Origin: an uncultured Rhodospirillales bacterium
Lineage (GTDB): Bacteria; Pseudomonadota; Alphaproteobacteria; Azospirillales; Azospirillaceae
Assembly: GCA_903856295.1 (NCBI GenBank)
Contig: CAIOBP010000118.1
Location: 1 to 47,727 of the forward strand
Direction of reading: 5' to 3'
DNA length: 47,727 bases
Shown: piece by piece, positions 3,804 through 14,798 of the stretch
How positions within the stretch are numbered: the stretch's first letter is position 1
How the letters are laid out: each line of letters starts with the position of its first letter
The notes under the pieces: model-generated
What the model was told of the DNA's origin: nothing
Database searches by the model: none
Seen by the model: the letters and a program-made list of their open reading frames with translations, nothing else
Program-made: the position numbers and the translations under genes

Positions 3804-4664
3804 ATGTTGCTGATCGCCGGTTGTGGCATCGTTATTTTCAGCGTTTTCGGGGGCTATGTCCTCAATAACGGCCATCTTGGCGTTCTCTGGCAGCCCTTCG
3901 AGTTTCTCATCATTTTGGGCGCCGGAGTTGGAGGCGTCATAACAAGTAATACCAAAGTCGTCTTGGGTCAGATTGGCAAGGAGATTGGCCACCTTATGAG
4001 TGGGCCAAAGTATAGTAAGGAGCACTACCTCGAACTATTAACAATGCTTTATCAGATATTCAAGATTGCAAAGACGAAGGGGTTGCTTGCTCTGGAGCAA
4101 CATATCGAAAAACCAGAGGAAAGTCCTTTATTTCAGCAATTTCCAAAGTTTTATGGCGACCACCATGCCGTAGCGTTTCTGTGTGATTATTTAAGGTTGA
4201 TGTCCCTTGGTTCGGACGACCCCCATCAGATCGGTGACCTTCTTGATGAAGAACTAGAAGTCCATCATATCCATTACGGAAGAGTCGCGACGGCACTTCA
4301 GCAACTCGCCGACGGTATTCCGGCTCTGGGCATCGTGGCGGCGGTGCTCGGCGTTATTCACACCATGGGCTCGATCACCGAACCGCCAGAGGTTCTAGGC
4401 AAGCTGATCGGTGGCGCGCTCGTGGGAACGTTCTTCGGCGTGTTCGCCTCTTACGGGTTTATCGCCCCGATGGCCAACGGGCTCAACGGTATTTACAGCA
4501 GCGAGGGGGCCTACTTCAAAGCGATCAAGGCTGGAATCGTCGCGCACTTGAATGGGTATGCCCCGGCCATTTCCGTTGAATACGCCAGAAAAGGCCTGCC
4601 CGACGAATCGAAGCCATCGTTCTCGGAAGTGGAAGAGGCCACCGCCGCCCTGCCGCCGGCCTAG
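3804..4664 (+). CDS. motA: Flagellar motor stator protein MotA
   Basis: MotA forms the inner-membrane stator ring that, with MotB, conducts ions and drives flagellar rotation. The protein has 286 residues, the usual length. The N-terminal membrane pair is at about residues 1-20 and 33-53, the cytoplasmic domain at 60-165, and the C-terminal membrane pair at 172-190 and 200-222. Prolines P173 (GIPALG) and P222 (FIAPMA) match the channel prolines of E. coli MotA. E98 is present, and K90 replaces the interface arginine. A ribosome site AGGAG lies about 10 bases before the ATG. No motB follows: the next element is a palindromic repeat and then an opposite-strand gene. Base composition changes inside the gene: 4021-4080 is 37% GC by hand count and 4321-4380 is 67%. 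Confidence 0.97.
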   Translation: MLLIAGCGIVIFSVFGGYVLNNGHLGVLWQPFEFLIILGAGVGGVITSNTKVVLGQIGKEIGHLMSGPKYSKEHYLELLTMLYQIFKIAKTKGLLALEQHIEKPEESPLFQQFPKFYGDHHAVAFLCDYLRLMSLGSDDPHQIGDLLDEELEVHHIHYGRVATALQQLADGIPALGIVAAVLGVIHTMGSITEPPEVLGKLIGGALVGTFFGVFASYGFIAPMANGLNGIYSSEGAYFKAIKAGIVAHLNGYAPAISVEYARKGLPDESKPSFSEVEEATAALPPA

Positions 4665-7548: not shown

Positions 7549-8232
7549 TTACGCATCGCTGTTGTTTGCCAAGAATGGTGGCGTGACAGACAGGTCGATA
7601 TCCATCGTCGCTCTCACCAAATCACAAATAGAGTTAACGCGCATTTTTCTCATGGTATTTTTTCGGTACGACTCCACGGTCCGGCAGCTCAATCCCAATT
7701 GAGTTGCAATCTCTTTGTTGTGGTAGCCTTTAATAAGAAGCTGTACAAGTTCAAATTCACGAGGCGACAATCGCCACAGCCGCTTCAGGGCTTCAGCCCG
7801 CAAAATTCGCTGTTTGACATACTTTGACGAAATTTTGATTGCCTCGAATATCTTCGGGGCAAGCGCAGTTGGGGAGGGATCACCAACAATGATATCAAAA
7901 GCCCCGGCTTTCATGATGCGGACGGCCCCTGAAACATCGCACCGATTGGCAATGATGATCAGCGGCGTCACCTCCGCGAGAGACTTGATGAGACGGGGCA
8001 TCACATCATCGTCATGGTCGGGGGATTCCATATAAATAATGGCACAGGAAAATAAATCATTCAGCAATCCCAAAGCGAGATCAGCCAAACTTGAATAGGT
8101 GGACAGCAGGTGATGGTGGGGAGCCAGGGCCGTTTTAAGGGAAATCAGGCGGGGTTCCGTGCAGTTGACGGCGGCAACGGATATCGTGCGCAGGTAGATG
8201 TCGGACCTGGGAGGGGCACTTGTCGACGTCAC
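7549..8232 (-). CDS. LuxR-family regulator with degenerate receiver domain
   Basis: The protein has 227 residues. Residues about 15-135 have the order of a FixJ-like receiver (IIIANRCDVSGAVRIMKAGAFDIIV resembles the beta4-alpha4-beta5 face), but the phospho-acceptor aspartate position is tyrosine (CAIIYMES, Y67) and the conserved lysine is lost (GDPS). It is thus probably phosphorylation-independent. Residues about 152-212 are a LuxR/GerE helix-turn-helix: LSPREFELVQLLIKGYHNKE followed by CRTVESYRKN. The start is a GTG with a weak ribosome site, so the N-terminus could be shorter. Codon use is AT-richer than in the flanking housekeeping genes. Targets are unknown; the adjacent CBS gene and the nuoL-nuoM pair are candidates. 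Confidence 0.88.
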   Translation of the reverse strand: MTSTSAPPRSDIYLRTISVAAVNCTEPRLISLKTALAPHHHLLSTYSSLADLALGLLNDLFSCAIIYMESPDHDDDVMPRLIKSLAEVTPLIIIANRCDVSGAVRIMKAGAFDIIVGDPSPTALAPKIFEAIKISSKYVKQRILRAEALKRLWRLSPREFELVQLLIKGYHNKEIATQLGLSCRTVESYRKNTMRKMRVNSICDLVRATMDIDLSVTPPFLANNSDA

Positions 8233-8389: not shown

Positions 8390-8875
8390 CTAGTAGCGTG
8401 CTCCAGATCTGAAAACAAACTCAGTCATATGCTTGAGTTCAAGGGCGGCCTCGTCATACAGCCCCTCAAGCGCGTCTTTTCTTGTTACAAGGCCATGAAG
8501 AACACCGTCCTCAACAACCGGCATGTGCCGAATTTCCAATTTGGCCATCCGCTGCAATACGCAAATAATATCCTCACCCAAGGTTGCGGCATGTATATTT
8601 GTCGTCATGACATCGGAGACCGTCATCTTGAAAAGCTTCTCCCGGTGTCGGTACAAACCAAATACAATGTCTCCGAGCGACAAAACACCGACCACGCGAT
8701 CATTTTCATCAACGGCAACGGCAAGCGAGTAGCGTCTGCCGTGATCGGATTCAAGAAAACGGGAGGAGGCCTCGGTAATGGCAAGCGTCGTGGGAACCTT
8801 AAGAGCCGAGTGGCCATACCTGTCGAGAAACTTTTGAACGCTCAGCGTCTTTCCAGTTGTCGAGCAGTAATCCAT
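8390..8875 (-). CDS. Tandem CBS-domain protein
   Basis: The protein has 161 residues from the ATG at 8875, preceded by GGGGGG five bases upstream. An alternative ATG at 8902 would add nine residues; there it overlaps the stop of a doubtful 84-codon frame as ATGA. Two CBS units fill the protein: residues about 10-75 (with AVDENDRVVGVLSLGDIV) and 83-145 (with VSDVMTTNIHAATLGED and HMPVVEDGVLHGLVTRKDAL). Stand-alone CBS pairs bind adenine nucleotides and act as energy sensors or regulate transporters and channels. It is divergent from nuoL, which fits a role in gating or regulating that pair, but this is inference. Composition is AT-richer than the core genes. Confidence 0.9.
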   Translation of the reverse strand: MDYCSTTGKTLSVQKFLDRYGHSALKVPTTLAITEASSRFLESDHGRRYSLAVAVDENDRVVGVLSLGDIVFGLYRHREKLFKMTVSDVMTTNIHAATLGEDIICVLQRMAKLEIRHMPVVEDGVLHGLVTRKDALEGLYDEAALELKHMTEFVFRSGARY

Positions 8876-8902
8876 AGTTTCCCCCCAGCGATACGGTGTC
8901 AT

Positions 8903-9298
8903 TTTCCTGACAGAAGTCTGAGTTCGCGCGTCAAACTGAAAACAACGGCCACTCTCAGGCTTGCACTCTCAGGCTCGTCTCTCAGTGTGGGTGTCATGCG
9001 ATGGCCAAATGTTTTCGGCACCACTGGCAGGCCACCGGGATCGGAGGTGTCGGGCTCCACCCATTTTCCAGGAGAGTTCATCGAAACCATCAGAATGTCA
9101 ACCGTTTTCAGCGGGATCGCGGCAATACCGTAAATGTACTGACCATATATCACTTAGGGATAGCAGGTCTGGCATTTTCACGTATCGACGCCTCTCGCTG
9201 TAATTGCTATTAACTTACAAAAGCTGTATCGGCTCTAAACCGGCGCTGAGGCTTTGGCTGACATCAGCGTCGGCTTTGAAACTGAGGGGGCTGGCACC
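8903..9298. other. Intergenic region between CBS gene and nuoL
   Basis: This 396-bp spacer separates divergent genes and must contain both promoters. It holds a 12-bp perfect direct repeat CACTCTCAGGCT at 8950-8961 and 8964-8975 (period 14). A minus-strand frame of 84 codons (8899-9153) is open but has no recognisable domain or clear ribosome site. The nuoL end has a GAGGGGG ribosome site just before 9299. No convincing sigma-70 box was identified by eye. Confidence 0.5.
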
Positions 9299-11227
9299 AT
9301 GTGGTTTATCGCCGTATTTCCACCGCTGCTCGGGGCTGTGATTGCCGGGCTGGCAGGGCGGATGATCGGGGATCGAGGGTCACAGTTGGTGACGTGCTCG
9401 GGAGTGATCGCATCCGCGATTGCTTCTGTTTGGCTTTTCTTTAATATTGGTATTCATCATAGTGAAAGCCATGTGATTGAGTTGTTCACTTGGTTTTCCA
9501 GTGGCACTTTTAAAGCGTCTTGGGCGCTTCGTTTCGATACGCTGACGGCAGTAATGCTTGTCGTGGTTAATTTCGTGTCGGCCTGTGTCCATGTCTATTC
9601 GGTTGGGTACATGTCTCATGACCATCATAAACCTCGGTTTATGGCCTATTTGAGCCTTTTTACCTTTTGCATGCTGATGCTGGTGACTGCCAACAATCTC
9701 ATGCAGATGTTTTTCGGTTGGGAAGGCGTTGGGCTGTGCTCATACCTGCTGATAAATTTCTGGTATGAGAAACCCAGTGCGAATGCCGCGGCGATCAAAG
9801 CATTCGTTGTCAATCGCGCCGGAGACTTCGGATTTGCCTTGGGAATTATGACCCTATACGTTCTAACAGGTGTTTTGGATTTTGATGCCATATTTGCCGC
9901 GGTGCCGTCGGTGGCCGGGCAAACCTCCGCGTTTTTGGGATATTCCGTCAATGTTCTGACCGTCGCCTGTTTGCTTCTGTTCATGGGCGCGATGGGAAAA
10001 TCGGCGCAGTTGGGACTGCACACATGGCTCCCGGATGCCATGGAGGGTCCGACCCCGGTGTCGGCCTTGATCCACGCAGCAACCATGGTGACGGCTGGAG
10101 TATTCATGCTGGCGCGCCTCTCGCCTGTGTTCGAATATGCGCCGACCGCACTCGCCGTGGTCGCAATTGTCGGGGCGCTGACGGCCTTTGTCGCGGCGAC
10201 CATTGGACTGACCCAGTTTGACATCAAGCGGGTGATCGCCTACTCGACGATGAGCCAGCTTGGATACATGTTTTTTGCGATTGGTGTATCGGCCTATTCG
10301 GCCGCAATGTTTCACCTTATGACCCACGCCTTTTTCAAGGCCTTGCTTTTCCTGGGCGCGGGCTCTGTTATTCATGCCATGTCCGGCGAGCAGGACATGC
10401 GCAAGATGGGAGGCATCGCAAGGCGCATTCCGGTAACCTACGGTCTGATGTGGATTGGCAGCCTCGCGCTGGCAGGCGTTCCCTTTTTCGCCGGTTACTA
10501 CTCCAAGGACATGATTTTGGAGGCGTCTTTCGCGGCAGGCACGGGGATCGGCCAATTTACGTATTGGATTGGCATTTGTGCGGCCGTTATGACGGCTTTC
10601 TACTCATGGCGCCTGATTTTCATGACCTTTCATGGAAAACCGCGAGCTGATCATCATGTCATGGACCACGTTCATGAAGCGCCACTTGTCATGCTGGCTC
10701 CCTTGTTGGCGCTGGCGATAGGTTCGATTTGTGCCGGCTTCATTGGGTATGAGTATTTTGTTGGTCATGGCCGGGTTGAATTCTGGGGGCGGTCGCTCTT
10801 TGTTCTGTCGAACCAGGATTCGGTCTCGGTTGCTCATCACGCTCTTCCGGTTTGGGTTGGTCAACTTCCTACGGTCGTTGGGGGTATCGGTATACTCTTG
10901 GCCCTGGTTGCCTACGTTCTGATACCGACGTTGCCGTCCCTGATTGTGGAGAGAATTCGTCCGGTTTATGCTTTTGTGCTCGCGAAATGGCGTTTCGACG
11001 AACTTTATGATTTTCTCTTTGTTAAGACAGCGCTCAGGATCGGACTCGCGTTCTGGAAAACCGGTGATGCGAAGGTCATTGAGGGACTTGGACCTAATGC
11101 GGCCTCAGCTCTTGTGCGAGTTTCGGCTTGGAAAGTCAGCATGGCTCAGACGGGCTACATCTTTCACTACGCGTTTGTCATGGTCATTGGACTGGTCATC
11201 CTGATCGCTTGGTTCATGATCAAGTAG
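9299..11227 (+). CDS. nuoL: NADH-quinone oxidoreductase subunit L (orphan copy)
   Basis: NuoL is the distal antiporter-like proton-pumping subunit of complex I. The protein has 642 residues from the ATG at 9299 (MWFIAVFPPLLG), which follows a GAGGGGG ribosome site; the 15-residue upstream extension is rejected. The key membrane residues are present: E142 in GWEGVGLCSYLL, K234 in MGKSAQLGLHTWLPDA, and K403 in GYYSKD. The C-terminal lateral helix and last helix are intact (RFDELYDFLFVKTALR and QTGYIFHYAFVM). It is followed 25 bp later by nuoM, the normal nuoLM order, but nuoK and the rest of nuo are absent upstream. GC is uneven: 33% at 9421-9480 and 68% at 10021-10080 by hand count. The pair may be a second copy, a relocated part of the only operon, or a stand-alone ion translocator. 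Confidence 0.96.
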   Translation: MWFIAVFPPLLGAVIAGLAGRMIGDRGSQLVTCSGVIASAIASVWLFFNIGIHHSESHVIELFTWFSSGTFKASWALRFDTLTAVMLVVVNFVSACVHVYSVGYMSHDHHKPRFMAYLSLFTFCMLMLVTANNLMQMFFGWEGVGLCSYLLINFWYEKPSANAAAIKAFVVNRAGDFGFALGIMTLYVLTGVLDFDAIFAAVPSVAGQTSAFLGYSVNVLTVACLLLFMGAMGKSAQLGLHTWLPDAMEGPTPVSALIHAATMVTAGVFMLARLSPVFEYAPTALAVVAIVGALTAFVAATIGLTQFDIKRVIAYSTMSQLGYMFFAIGVSAYSAAMFHLMTHAFFKALLFLGAGSVIHAMSGEQDMRKMGGIARRIPVTYGLMWIGSLALAGVPFFAGYYSKDMILEASFAAGTGIGQFTYWIGICAAVMTAFYSWRLIFMTFHGKPRADHHVMDHVHEAPLVMLAPLLALAIGSICAGFIGYEYFVGHGRVEFWGRSLFVLSNQDSVSVAHHALPVWVGQLPTVVGGIGILLALVAYVLIPTLPSLIVERIRPVYAFVLAKWRFDELYDFLFVKTALRIGLAFWKTGDAKVIEGLGPNAASALVRVSAWKVSMAQTGYIFHYAFVMVIGLVILIAWFMIK

Positions 11228-11252
11228 GTTTCTATCTCACGAGGGCAAGGAC

Positions 11253-12866
11253 ATGGGTGGGTTTCCAATTTTATCCGTAACGACCTTTTTGCCTTTGAGC
11301 GGCGTGCTCTTGATCTTTTTATTTCATAAAAGGAGCGCGGATAATGTTGATGTTGCGCGCCATATAGCTTTGTGGACGTCCCTGGCGACATTTGTTGCAT
11401 CGCTGGTCATGCTTCGTGGTTTTGATTCCGGGTCGTCATCTTTTCAGATGGTCGAGCTTGTTCCATGGATGCCGTCGCTTGGCATCGCCTACCATGTTGG
11501 CGTGGATGGCATCTCGGTTTTGTTCATTGTGCTCTCCGCATTTCTGACGCCATTGTGCATTATTTCCAGTTGGGCATCTGTCAAGTCAAGGGTCAACGAG
11601 TATATGGTTTCCTTTCTCATTCTGGAAACATTTATGATTGGCACCTTTTGCGCTCTTGACTTGCTGCAATTCTATATTTTCTTTGAGGGCGTTTTGCTGC
11701 CGATGTATCTGATTATTGGTGTTTGGGGCGGGAGTAATCGGGTTTACGCCGCGTATAAATTCTTTATTTATACTCTGTTCGGCTCCGTGTTTATGCTGAT
11801 TGCATTTCTTGCGATTCACTTTTTGGCGGGAACGACTGACATCGTCGAGTTGTTTGAGAAGAAGCAAGAGTTCTCTTTTTCGGTGCAGGCGATCCTTTGG
11901 TTGGCGTTCTTCTCTTCTTTTGCTGTGAAAGTGCCGATGTGGCCCGTTCACACATGGTTGCCTGACGCCCATGTCGAGGCGCCGACCGCTGGCTCTGTTA
12001 TTCTGGCTGGCGTATTGCTCAAGATGGGTGGCTATGGTTTTCTTCGGCTTTCGATTCCCCTTTTACCGGATGCGACAAGTTATTTTGCGCCCCTGGTTTT
12101 TTCGCTCAGCATTGTTGCCTTGGTTTATGCGTCTTATATTGCCCTGGTCCAGGAGGATATGAAGAAGCTGATTGCGTATTCATCCGTCGCGCACATGGGA
12201 TATGTCACGATCGGCATATTCACTCTAAATGTCCAAGGAGTTGAGGGGGCAATTTTTCAAATGTTGTCCCATGGGATTGTTTCAAGCGCGCTGTTTTTGT
12301 GTGTTGGCACTGTTTACGACAGGCTCCACACGCGTGAAATTTCCCGCTACGGCGGTCTGGCAACAAACATGCCCCGGTATGCCTTGATTTTCATGGTGAT
12401 GATGCTGGCTTCGGTTGGGCTGCCGGGAACCAGTGGTTTCGTTGGAGAGTTCTTGATTTTGGTCGGCGCCTTCCAGGCCAACGTTTTGGTTGCGGCTTTG
12501 ACCGCTACTGGCCTTGTGCTCGGCTGTATGTATATGCTTTGGCTATATCGGAGAGTGATCTTCGGGAAGCTGTACAAGACTGACTGTCAGACGATGAGCG
12601 ATCTTGGATTGCGTGAGGTCTTTGTTTTCGCTCCGCTGGTTCTTCTGGTCTTCTGGATGGGCATCTATCCAGTCAGTTTTTCAAAGGTCTCGTCCGCATC
12701 GGTTTTGCATCTGATCAATAATTATGAACTTGCGCTTTCTTCCCCTTCTGAAAGTTCGGATCAGGCCGGTTTGCCAATCCGAACCGACGATCGGCAAGTG
12801 GTGGCCCAGGCGCTATGGCGTCCGGTGGATCGCGAACGGGCTGAAGGCTTGGGTGGTGCCCATTAA
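11253..12866 (+). CDS. nuoM: NADH-quinone oxidoreductase subunit M (orphan copy, extended C-terminus)
   Basis: NuoM is the second antiporter-like subunit. The protein has 537 residues; about 500 is usual. Functional residues are present: E145 in FFEGVLLPMYLIIGVWGG, K226 in FAVKVPMWPVHTWLPDAH, K257 in GVLLKMGGYGFLR, and E399 in TSGFVGEFLILVG. The normal C-terminal end is reached near residue 497 (HLINNYELALSS). The last 40 residues are hydrophilic, do not resemble NuoM, and the final 54 bases run antisense into the 3' end of the SDR gene. A TGA in another frame at 12749-12751 suggests the native stop may have been lost by a frameshift. No nuoN follows. GC is 38% at 11761-11820 by hand count, well below neighbouring genes. 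Confidence 0.95.
   Translation: MGGFPILSVTTFLPLSGVLLIFLFHKRSADNVDVARHIALWTSLATFVASLVMLRGFDSGSSSFQMVELVPWMPSLGIAYHVGVDGISVLFIVLSAFLTPLCIISSWASVKSRVNEYMVSFLILETFMIGTFCALDLLQFYIFFEGVLLPMYLIIGVWGGSNRVYAAYKFFIYTLFGSVFMLIAFLAIHFLAGTTDIVELFEKKQEFSFSVQAILWLAFFSSFAVKVPMWPVHTWLPDAHVEAPTAGSVILAGVLLKMGGYGFLRLSIPLLPDATSYFAPLVFSLSIVALVYASYIALVQEDMKKLIAYSSVAHMGYVTIGIFTLNVQGVEGAIFQMLSHGIVSSALFLCVGTVYDRLHTREISRYGGLATNMPRYALIFMVMMLASVGLPGTSGFVGEFLILVGAFQANVLVAALTATGLVLGCMYMLWLYRRVIFGKLYKTDCQTMSDLGLREVFVFAPLVLLVFWMGIYPVSFSKVSSASVLHLINNYELALSSPSESSDQAGLPIRTDDRQVVAQALWRPVDRERAEGLGGAH
12754..12784. terminator. Hairpin at the nuoM/SDR junction
   Basis: GTTCGGAT at 12754-12761 is perfectly complementary to ATCCGAAC at 12777-12784, giving an 8-bp stem with a 15-base loop. 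It sits after the expected natural end of nuoM and 29 bp beyond the SDR stop, between two convergent genes. No T-run follows on either strand, so it would be a weak or Rho-assisted terminator. Confidence 0.4.
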
Positions 12867-13571
12867 CTCGATGCTGTTGATGTTGACGCGCTCGGGCAGG
12901 CCGGCGCACCAGAGCACGCTTTCCGCGACGTCTTCAGGGATCAGCGGCGTGGTGTTGGCGTAGACCTTGGCGGCCTTTTCGGCATCGCCCTGGTAGCGCA
13001 CCAGCGAGAAATCGGTGCCGGCGACCATTCCCGGCTCGATGTTGGTGACGCGCACGCCGGTGCCCAGGACATCGGCGCGCAGGGCCAGGGAAAACTGCCT
13101 CACGAAGGCCTTGGTGGCGCAATAGACATGGCCGCCGGGGTAGGGCCAGTTGCCGGCGACCGAACCGATATTGATGATATGGCCCCGGCCGCGCGCGATC
13201 ATGCCCGGCAGCAGCAACCGGGTCATCACCACCAACCCCTTGGTGTTGGTGTCGATCATTTGCTCCCAGTCGTCGAGGGATGCCTGCTGGGCGGGGCCGG
13301 CGCCGAGCGCCAGTCCGGCATTGTTGACCAGTACGTCGACCCCGGCGAACTCCGGCGGCAGCGCCGACACCGCCGTTTCGATGGCGCCGCGGTCGCGGAT
13401 GTCGAAAGCGGCGAGGTGCACCGGTACCGGGGGCAGGGACGTCGCCAGCGCTTCCAGCCGTTCGGGCGTCCGTCCGGCCAGGATCAACCGGTCGCCGAGC
13501 CTGGCGAAACGTCCGGCGATCGCCCGGCCGAAGCCGCCGCTGGCACCGGTGATGAGCACGGTTCTGGTCAT
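12813..13571 (-). CDS. SDR family oxidoreductase (YdfG-like)
   Basis: The protein has 252 residues. The NAD(P)-binding motif is TGASGGFG at about residues 8-15, NNAG follows in VDVLVNNAGLALGAG, the catalytic serine is in NIGSVAGNWPYPG, and the YxxxK pair is in YCATKAFVRQ. The arginines in LAGRTPERL suggest a preference for NADPH. The ending, VNINSIELMGTTQAFSP, closely resembles YdfG/serine dehydrogenase-type enzymes that oxidise 3-hydroxy acids or reduce malonic semialdehyde; the substrate is inferred. The ATG overlaps the mazG stop as ATGA, so it is probably translationally coupled to mazG. Its 3' end is overlapped by the extended nuoM frame. Confidence 0.92.
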   Translation of the reverse strand: MTRTVLITGASGGFGRAIAGRFARLGDRLILAGRTPERLEALATSLPPVPVHLAAFDIRDRGAIETAVSALPPEFAGVDVLVNNAGLALGAGPAQQASLDDWEQMIDTNTKGLVVMTRLLLPGMIARGRGHIINIGSVAGNWPYPGGHVYCATKAFVRQFSLALRADVLGTGVRVTNIEPGMVAGTDFSLVRYQGDAEKAAKVYANTTPLIPEDVAESVLWCAGLPERVNINSIELMGTTQAFSPFAIHRTP

Positions 13572-14422
13572 GATGCGGTGGACTCCCGTTCCTCGCGCTT
13601 GGCCTGTTGCCACAGCGCTTCCATTTCTTCGAGACTGGCATCGGTGGGGGCGCGGTTCTGGAGGGCCAGCAGCGCCTCGATGCGGTGAAAGCGGCGTTCG
13701 AACTTGGCGTTGGCGCCCCGGATCGCGCCTTCCGGATCGACCTCCAAACGGCGGGCGAGGTTGACCAGCACGAACAGCAGATCGCCAAGCTCGTCGGCCA
13801 CCCGGTCATGGGCGGGGCCGCGAGCGGTGCTGCCGGCGGCGGCGCGCAACTCGACCCTTAGTTCGCCGATTTCCTCCTCGATCTTGTCGAGGATATCGAT
13901 GGTTTCCACCCAATCGAACCCGACCCGCGCCGCACGCTTTTGCAGCTTCAGCGCCCGGGTCAGGCCGGGCAGACCGCGAATCACGCCATCGAGGGCACTG
14001 GCGGCCCGGCCCTCGGCGGCGGCCTCGGCGGCGCGCTCGGCCGCCTTGTGCTCCTCCCAGCGCACGGTCTGGGCGGCGGCGTCGGCCACCCGGGCCTCAC
14101 CGAAGACATGGGGATGGCGCCGGATCATCTTGTCGGAAATCGCCGCCGCCACCGCCTCGAAATCGAAGGCGCCGCGCTCGCGGGCGATCTGGGCGTGAAA
14201 CACCACCTGGAACAGCAGATCGCCCAACTCGTCGCGCAGGGCCGGCAGATCGTCGCGCTCGATGGCGTCGGCGACCTCGTAGGCCTCCTCGATGGTATGG
14301 GGCGCCACGGTGCGGAAGCTCTGCTCGATGTCCCACGGGCAGCCGTTCACCGGATCGCGCAGCCGCGCCATGATCGTGAGCAGGCGGTCGATCGGGCGTT
14401 CGGAGGAGGGGTCGGAAGCCAT
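13568..14422 (-). CDS. mazG: Nucleoside triphosphate pyrophosphohydrolase MazG
   Basis: MazG hydrolyses (d)NTPs to NMP and pyrophosphate, removing aberrant nucleotides. The protein has 284 residues, normal for the two-domain form. The first MazG domain carries PWDIEQSFRTVAPHTIEEAY and the metal-binding run DELGDLLFQVVFHAQ; the second carries EEIGELRVEL and DELGDLLFVLVNLARRL. VGFDWVETIDILDKIEEE is typical of the linker. It lies upstream of, and overlaps, the SDR gene, and is preceded by the HNH gene whose stop is 10 bp away, so the three may be one transcript. Confidence 0.97.
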   Translation of the reverse strand: MASDPSSERPIDRLLTIMARLRDPVNGCPWDIEQSFRTVAPHTIEEAYEVADAIERDDLPALRDELGDLLFQVVFHAQIARERGAFDFEAVAAAISDKMIRRHPHVFGEARVADAAAQTVRWEEHKAAERAAEAAAEGRAASALDGVIRGLPGLTRALKLQKRAARVGFDWVETIDILDKIEEEIGELRVELRAAAGSTARGPAHDRVADELGDLLFVLVNLARRLEVDPEGAIRGANAKFERRFHRIEALLALQNRAPTDASLEEMEALWQQAKREERESTAS

Positions 14423-14432
14423 GGTCTGGATG

Positions 14433-14798
14433 TCACCGGAAGGGGCTGAAGAACGACCACCATCCTAGCAAACGCCGGTCCCGGTGGGCGACCGCCTCGT
14501 GACAGTCGCCGCATAAAGTCGTCAGTGCGTCGGTGGTCTCGGTGCCGAGCACCTCGGGATAATAGCGGTGATGAACCTGAAGCCCTCCAGAGGCGTTGCA
14601 CAGCCGGCAGCGCCGCCCGTCGCGCTCCAGCGCCTCGCGGCGCAACCGCTTCCAGGTGTCGGACTGCATATACTCGCGATAGGCCCGCTGCCGGGCGCTG
14701 AGCCGGTGCCAGCCGATCAGTCCGACCAGCAGCCGCAACACCAGCGCGACCACCAGCAACCCGCCCAGCAAAAGGTATGGCTCGGCGGTATCAGGCAT
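14433..14798 (-). CDS. Membrane-anchored HNH endonuclease-like protein
   Basis: The protein has 121 residues. A hydrophobic helix at about residues 8-30 (LLLGGLLVVALVLRLLVGLI) is followed by a basic linker and an HNH domain. The zinc-type cysteines are in CRLCNASGG and LCGDCHEAVAH, and the histidine pair is in LQVHHRYYPEVLG. HNH proteins cut DNA or RNA; the membrane anchor is unusual and the target unknown. It reads in the same direction as mazG with a 10-bp gap. It could also be a nuclease domain repurposed for phage defence or DNA uptake; nothing in the neighbourhood decides this. Confidence 0.83.
   Translation of the reverse strand: MPDTAEPYLLLGGLLVVALVLRLLVGLIGWHRLSARQRAYREYMQSDTWKRLRREALERDGRRCRLCNASGGLQVHHRYYPEVLGTETTDALTTLCGDCHEAVAHRDRRLLGWWSFFSPFR

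Follow-up and report, generated by a model that had tools for sequence, protein, structure and literature searches.

What does a complete pair of nuoL and nuoM genes do where no other gene of respiratory complex I is to be found? Such a pair occupies positions 9299-12866 of the stretch analysed here (hereafter the window: all 47,727 nucleotides of contig CAIOBP010000118.1, assembly GCA_903856295.1), which comes from an uncultured Rhodospirillales bacterium of the Azospirillaceae. Elsewhere in the genome is a nuo operon from which nuoL and nuoM are missing, and a second, differing nuoL-nuoM pair is present on another contig. On balance, the window probably carries one of two distal-arm modules that act in trans, complex I taking NuoL and NuoM from either of two exchangeable pairs.

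A Complete nuoL-nuoM Pair Without Complex I Neighbors

Both genes lie on the forward strand, and reading of the open reading frames shows them to be complete and uninterrupted. The nuoL gene (9299-11227, ATG start at 9299) encodes 642 residues and is identified by the curated model TIGR01974 and by alignment with the E. coli protein. Its NCBIfam score is 832 bits against a cut-off of 407.5, and the match spans profile positions 4-630 of 630, hence the full length. Alignment with E. coli NuoL (3rko_L) covers residues 6-611 of 613 and agrees with the profile that the C-terminal part, where complex I has its lateral helix, has been kept. The nuoM gene (11253-12866, 537 residues) likewise passes its curated model, PRK05846.1-3 (769 bits, cut-off 585), and aligns with E. 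coli NuoM. Identity as other members of the superfamily was rejected: the best Mrp antiporter subunit A model gives 294 bits against a cut-off of 1104, and the cyanobacterial NdhF3 model TIGR01960 gives 223 and 216 bits (cut-off 588.7).

Alignment with the E. coli K-12 proteins and relatives places NuoL E142, K234, and K403 and NuoM E145, K226, K257, and E399 at exactly these numbers, and all listed proton-path positions are kept. Of the columns that do not vary among the non-genus relatives in the alignment, only 4 of 182 in NuoL and 7 of 149 in NuoM are changed, from which the pair appears to be under purifying constraint. A preliminary description of this DNA had recognized two antiporter-like subunits with all these key residues and had found them without nuoK, nuoN or any other complex I gene. 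Both points hold: the neighbors named by Pfam are DUF188, LuxR (GerE), tandem CBS, SDR, and MazG, none of them a complex I gene.

The Core nuo Operon Has Lost nuoL and nuoM

If the pair is isolated, where is the rest of complex I? The genome is a draft of 255 contigs (completeness 98.97%, contamination 0.6), and its nuo operon lies on the contig C128. Here nuoA-H and nuoK are assigned by curated models, and nuoI and nuoJ share 94% and 79% identity with the locus of the closest species compared (G050). The order is nuoA-K, a spacer of 188 bp, and the start of nuoN, a 42-residue frame that runs to the contig end. This frame scores 101-123 against six NuoN sequences, and shuffled versions (500 each) reach at most 51. 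The spacer ends with a stretch of about 20 residues that aligns to the C-terminus of NuoM, best with that of G050 (score 53, shuffle maximum 38). In plain base shuffles, 500 for each of nine species, none scored as high in six of the nine.

The relatives have a different arrangement. Three species of the genus (G047, G048, G049) retain the order K-L-M-N, and G050 has nuoL and nuoM in the operon on a contig that ends just after nuoM. Outside the genus the two genes are adjacent in 19 of the 20 regions fetched, with nuoN following in 14; in the remaining region (G055) only nuoL was recognized. Because the relatives keep K-L-M-N or at least L-M where this genome has K, a spacer with a NuoM stub and N, nuoL and nuoM have been deleted from the bacterium's own operon, leaving the C-terminal end of NuoM behind. 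The preliminary description had proposed a search for a full nuo operon with its own nuoL and nuoM. That search recovered the operon from nuoA to nuoK with the start of nuoN, but the missing genes were not there, and another pair turned up on a second contig.

The Window Pair and the G050 Pair Differ in Descent

Could the window pair be the native genes, merely displaced? A tree of NuoH, NuoI, NuoJ, and NuoK (15 of the 20 regions; G050 NuoH contributes only 88 residues) places this genome (G000) as sister to G050 with support of 100/100, inside the genus, again with 100/100. Nevertheless, approximately unbiased (AU) tests on quick trees reject the window NuoL as sister of the G050 protein (p 4.9e-51, 16 rows) and the window NuoM likewise (p 1.6e-51, 20 rows). 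Since sister placement is rejected despite the firm core tree, the window pair, judged from its sequences, is either an old paralogue or of foreign origin. This rules out that the native operon was simply broken up. Such fragmentation had been offered as the explanation that would hold if the genome lacked any other nuoL or nuoM and the pair clustered with the species' own complex I; the operon does lack both genes, but a further pair exists and the tree placement goes against sisterhood with the G050 pair.

Beyond this the two proteins behave differently. Window NuoL groups with the clade of the genus (83/81 in one tree; 89/88 in another, unstarred). Of 29 family loci the NuoL tree included 13, and of 29 class loci it included 27. 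For NuoM (19 of the 20 fetched regions, G055 left out), the data neither establish nor reject a grouping with the genus clade (p 0.466). Window NuoM shares 65-68% identity with its counterparts in four species from other genera, in or near the family, and 51-53% with the genus's own. The operon NuoM of the genus (G047-G050, loci L042-L045) is itself divergent, with Tyr at the position of E. coli H348 in all four species and changes at 36 (G050) and 38 (G049) of the 149 otherwise invariant columns.

A Second, Divergent Pair

Genome-wide, six proteins carry PF00361: the window pair, a pair on contig C108, and two in a hydrogenase-4-like cluster on C254. On C108 a CBS gene, nuoL and nuoM follow one another on the same strand, with 56 bp between the CBS gene and nuoL. 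Identity to the window proteins is 48% for CBS, 47% for NuoL, and 42% for NuoM. Both frames are open and full-length, the key charged residues are kept, and curated models are passed (NuoL 655 bits, cut-off 556; NuoM TIGR01972 490 bits, cut-off 263.8), although NuoM falls short of PRK05846.1-3 (499 bits, cut-off 585). In E. coli numbering, NuoM H348 is replaced by Gln and NuoL D400 by Glu, and 31 of 182 (NuoL) and 50 of 149 (NuoM) otherwise invariant columns are changed.

Is this the displaced native pair? The placement of C108 NuoM as sister of G050 alone is rejected (p 0.0012), whereas grouping with the whole genus (62/87) and grouping with the window pair (p 0.567) both survive. Derived residues in common are few (four in NuoM and four in NuoL), and the C108 pair may or may not be the displaced native one. 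A search with C108 NuoL across 289 genomes of the class, four candidates being scored per genome, returned none above 55% identity.

Two further observations concern these contigs. Adjoining the C108 pair (9701-13615, L007) is a gene for a 1304-residue protein with 17 ALTTAQ-repeat stretches. The cluster on C254 (1764-9096, L009) resembles the Azorhizobium Hyq endo-hydrogenase, and its large-subunit frame lacks the CxxC motif, as reported for HyqG.

CBS Genes Beside Both Pairs

The tandem CBS gene of the window is divergent from nuoL (8390-8875, reverse strand, 161 residues). This start, a correction, gives the best reading since the homologues on contig C74 and in G050 begin with MDY. Two PF00571 stretches identify a tandem CBS (Bateman) arrangement, and the pattern G-x-x-S/T-x-x-D occurs in both domains, as it does in all four family members compared. 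The C-terminus FVFRSGARY is common to the C108 protein, whose gene, being on the same strand as its nuoL, is oriented differently. By manual count the genome has 13 CBS-containing frames, three of which belong to the family of the window protein (window, C108, and C74); two of these three adjoin the two nuoL-nuoM pairs. The link between the CBS gene and nuoL-nuoM, put forward in the preliminary description as an inference, is strengthened by this recurrence of a homologous gene beside both pairs.

Relatives of the CBS protein were found in 2 of the 82 family genomes (E 1e-15) and in 3 of 385 class genomes, this one included (E 1e-18; up to nine candidates were scored in each genome). The homologues in G228 and G405 (43% identity) have no nuoL or nuoM recognized in the stretches read. 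A scan of named genomes with two CBS proteins, for which the patterns were poor, gave five distant CBS proteins of 26-33% identity, and plasmid records held no match to the CBS protein. An alpha-carbonic anhydrase gene (PF00194) lies near the family's genes on C74 (L027, 6868-9121) and in G050 (L028, 7547-9535), a hint of a possible link to inorganic carbon or pH.

Downstream of the CBS gene, on the same strand, is a FixJ-like LuxR regulator (7549-8232), described from Pfam, NCBIfam, and a FixJ alignment. Its LuxR-type helix-turn-helix is clear (PF00196, E 1.4e-18), and no Pfam receiver model matches at E 0.001. In the alignment with FixJ (5xso), the Asp, Thr, and Lys of FixJ, which we take to be the positions that matter for a phosphorylatable receiver, are replaced by Tyr, Ala, and Gly. 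A phosphorylatable receiver of the FixJ/NarL type was therefore rejected for this protein. Between the CBS gene and nuoL, a putative control region (8876-9298) holds three copies of CTCTCAG at 8952, 8966, and 8979 (8952-8985 overall, spaced by 13-14 bp). The stretches of C108 and C74 that were scanned lack these repeats, and no FNR/FixK-like boxes were seen in the cassette stretches scanned, with one loose match in C128. Judged by its position, the CBS protein may be a sensor, and we infer that it or the LuxR protein could control the adjacent nuoL-nuoM.

Composition, Edges, and Distribution

Was the stretch acquired? Between roughly 7,500 and 12,750 of the window GC content is about 0.50, down from about 0.66, and GC at third codon positions (GC3) is 56-61% in the four genes of the island against 82-87% in nuoG, nuoH, nuoJ, and nuoK of the same genome. 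The AT-richer stretch with its divergent CBS gene and LuxR-type regulator with a degenerate receiver, as first described, is thus upheld by composition, Pfam, and the FixJ alignment. A probable right edge falls at 12755-12812, between the point where NuoM homology stops and the native 3' end of the SDR gene: GC climbs at about 12,750, and the SDR C-terminus resembles those of relatives. A search for repeats at the edges gave nothing convincing. By itself composition argues only weakly for acquisition, because a MotA-like gene in the window (3804-4664) has a GC content almost as low (53%, GC3 62%) amid GC-rich neighbors.

No donor emerged: among the matches listed from 385 class genomes, with three candidates scored per genome, the best NuoM identity was 68%, and NuoL was present in 41 plasmid records, always below 60% identity. 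Nor was an empty site recovered, as the G050 stretch lacks the SDR gene and none of the four stretches compared yielded the proteins of the window's left flank. Composition and the conflict between trees make the recent acquisition proposed earlier plausible, though no donor and no empty site came to light to bear it out.

In the 82 genomes of the order (the same set as for the family), NuoL was matched in 81 and two full-length copies were present only in this one. A second copy is possible in G062, which has one full NuoL and, close to the start of a contig, a piece of 250 residues; the two pieces in G072 together make one gene. The sole match in G055 (L113, 6960-8876), 50% identical to the window protein, sits among other nuo-like genes and is perhaps part of another complex I type. 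Elsewhere in the window, a tRNA-Thr called by ARAGORN at 14682-14775 lies inside an HNH-like frame (14433-14798) and is probably a false call.

How Might Complex I Be Assembled?

In the reading we favor, a native core of NuoA-K and NuoN would be completed with NuoL and NuoM from either the window or the C108 module. The window pair would serve as the canonical-looking pump and the C108 pair, with NuoM H348Q and NuoL D400E, as a divergent alternative; separate promoters would set which arm is made, and the CBS protein, perhaps sensing adenine nucleotide, would tune the arm beside it, joined in the window by the LuxR protein. The order of nuo genes is reportedly, to go by one paper's title, not essential for assembly of complex I in E. 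coli. A core operon without a fixed L-M (K, spacer and N, with a stub) together with two pairs elsewhere is the arrangement that an exchangeable arm would have, subject to the gap in nuoN, and the presence of two differing pairs outside the operon, each beside a related sensor-like gene, suggests exchangeable pump modules. The second, exchangeable membrane arm of the preliminary description thus remains the best reading, in altered form, the window pair being no additional arm but one that was relocated and apparently substituted, with an alternative to it: in place of an intact operon arm there is a nuoM stub, and there are two pairs in trans.

Several points weigh against it. The chief caveat is the draft itself: with 255 contigs and C128 cut within nuoN, a further nuoL-nuoM could lie in the gap, and the remainder of nuoN was not found in the draft. 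The NuoN start matches its NCBIfam model at only 14.9 bits (E 0.0093), far under the cut-off, and the NuoM stub is not significant against three of the nine species (G001, G026, and G056). The C108 proteins have end branches of 3.9 and 2.7, divergent enough that they could be non-functional in complex I. Homology of the window NuoM with its relatives stops after about INNYELAL, the final 40 or so residues being non-homologous. Finally, a single duplication of one cassette may account for both CBS neighborhoods, in which case the CBS link counts as one event and not two.

What else could explain the arrangement? The window pair may have simply replaced the native genes as the sole source of NuoL and NuoM, C108 being a relic or having another role and the CBS and LuxR proteins not acting on complex I. 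This we regard as rather unlikely, though it has real points in its favor: the window pair is canonical-looking, and the C108 pair combines its many changes at invariant columns with very long branches. The C108 frames are nonetheless open with their key charged residues kept, and next to each pair lies a CBS gene of one family. A bolder reading is that a core of NuoA-K and NuoN can run as a short pump and is fitted with the canonical or the divergent arm under paired CBS sensors, so that the H+ moved per NADH is set by the energy or inorganic-carbon state; we consider such gear-shifting doubtful. It seems improbable that the genome still contains a native nuoL-nuoM which the draft has lost or collapsed. 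The number of contigs and the truncation of nuoN speak for such an error, but the spacer is contiguous with both nuoK and nuoN and holds a NuoM-like C-terminus where a deletion would leave one, and completeness is high and contamination low.

Least credible, to our minds, is that both pairs work on their own, unconnected with complex I, as transporters of ions or CO2 of the Mrp or Dab kind, with complex I in a short form of NuoA-K and NuoN. Both loci are free of other nuo genes, the CBS relatives on C74 and in G050 lie beside alpha-carbonic anhydrase genes, and short forms have been described: E. coli complex I without NuoL and a Yarrowia form without ND4 and ND5 are reported to assemble and to pump about 1 H+/e- rather than about 2 (PMC9271201). 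Yet scores are far under those of Mrp A (294 of 1104) and NdhF3 (223 of 589) and far over the NuoL and NuoM cut-offs, Pfam names no partner gene beside the window pair, and the C-terminal region of NuoL is kept.

Relation to Known Systems and Significance

The closest parallel to exchangeable arms comes from cyanobacteria, where alternative NdhD-NdhF pairs on an NDH-1M core give NDH-1L, NDH-1MS, and NDH-1MS' (PMC9283085, PMC6981117), NdhD4/NdhF4 being one such pair (PMC5853218). In both cases one core is served by alternative NuoM- and NuoL-like subunits. However, exchange in cyanobacteria has been demonstrated biochemically and involves Cup proteins, whereas here it is deduced and CBS genes lie alongside, and the window proteins score as NuoL and NuoM and not as NdhF3. 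The distal antiporter-like subunits also vary in the 2M and green complex I of Nitrospira, Chloroflexi, rhizobia, and Manganitrophaceae (PMC9040806, PMC7117926), but there subunits are added or replaced within the gene set, and here L and M stand outside the operon as two separate pairs. Nitrospira alkalitolerans has nuoL/M-like genes apart from its nuo operons (PMC7784846); unlike in the present genome, all 14 nuo genes are present as well, and the isolated genes were interpreted by its authors as possible subunits of an antiporter. Rhodobacter sphaeroides, another alphaproteobacterium in which parts of complex I exist in alternative forms, differs in having two entire operons and thus two whole isozymes (PMC4859585), with no exchange of a distal pair.

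Within the excerpts of open-licence literature searched, we found no nuo operon lacking nuoL-nuoM with alternative pairs elsewhere outside the cyanobacteria, and no CBS gene adjoining nuoL-nuoM. A large survey lists 2,171 species with incomplete complex I, and similar layouts might be hidden among them. The number of protons moved by complex I and the identity of the subunits that pump them are still debated. If the reading favored here is true, this bacterium, with its distal pumps encoded apart from the core and in two versions, would let module exchange and stoichiometry be studied as a natural experiment beyond the cyanobacteria, and would show that a pair with a different ancestry can take the place of the distal arm as a whole.

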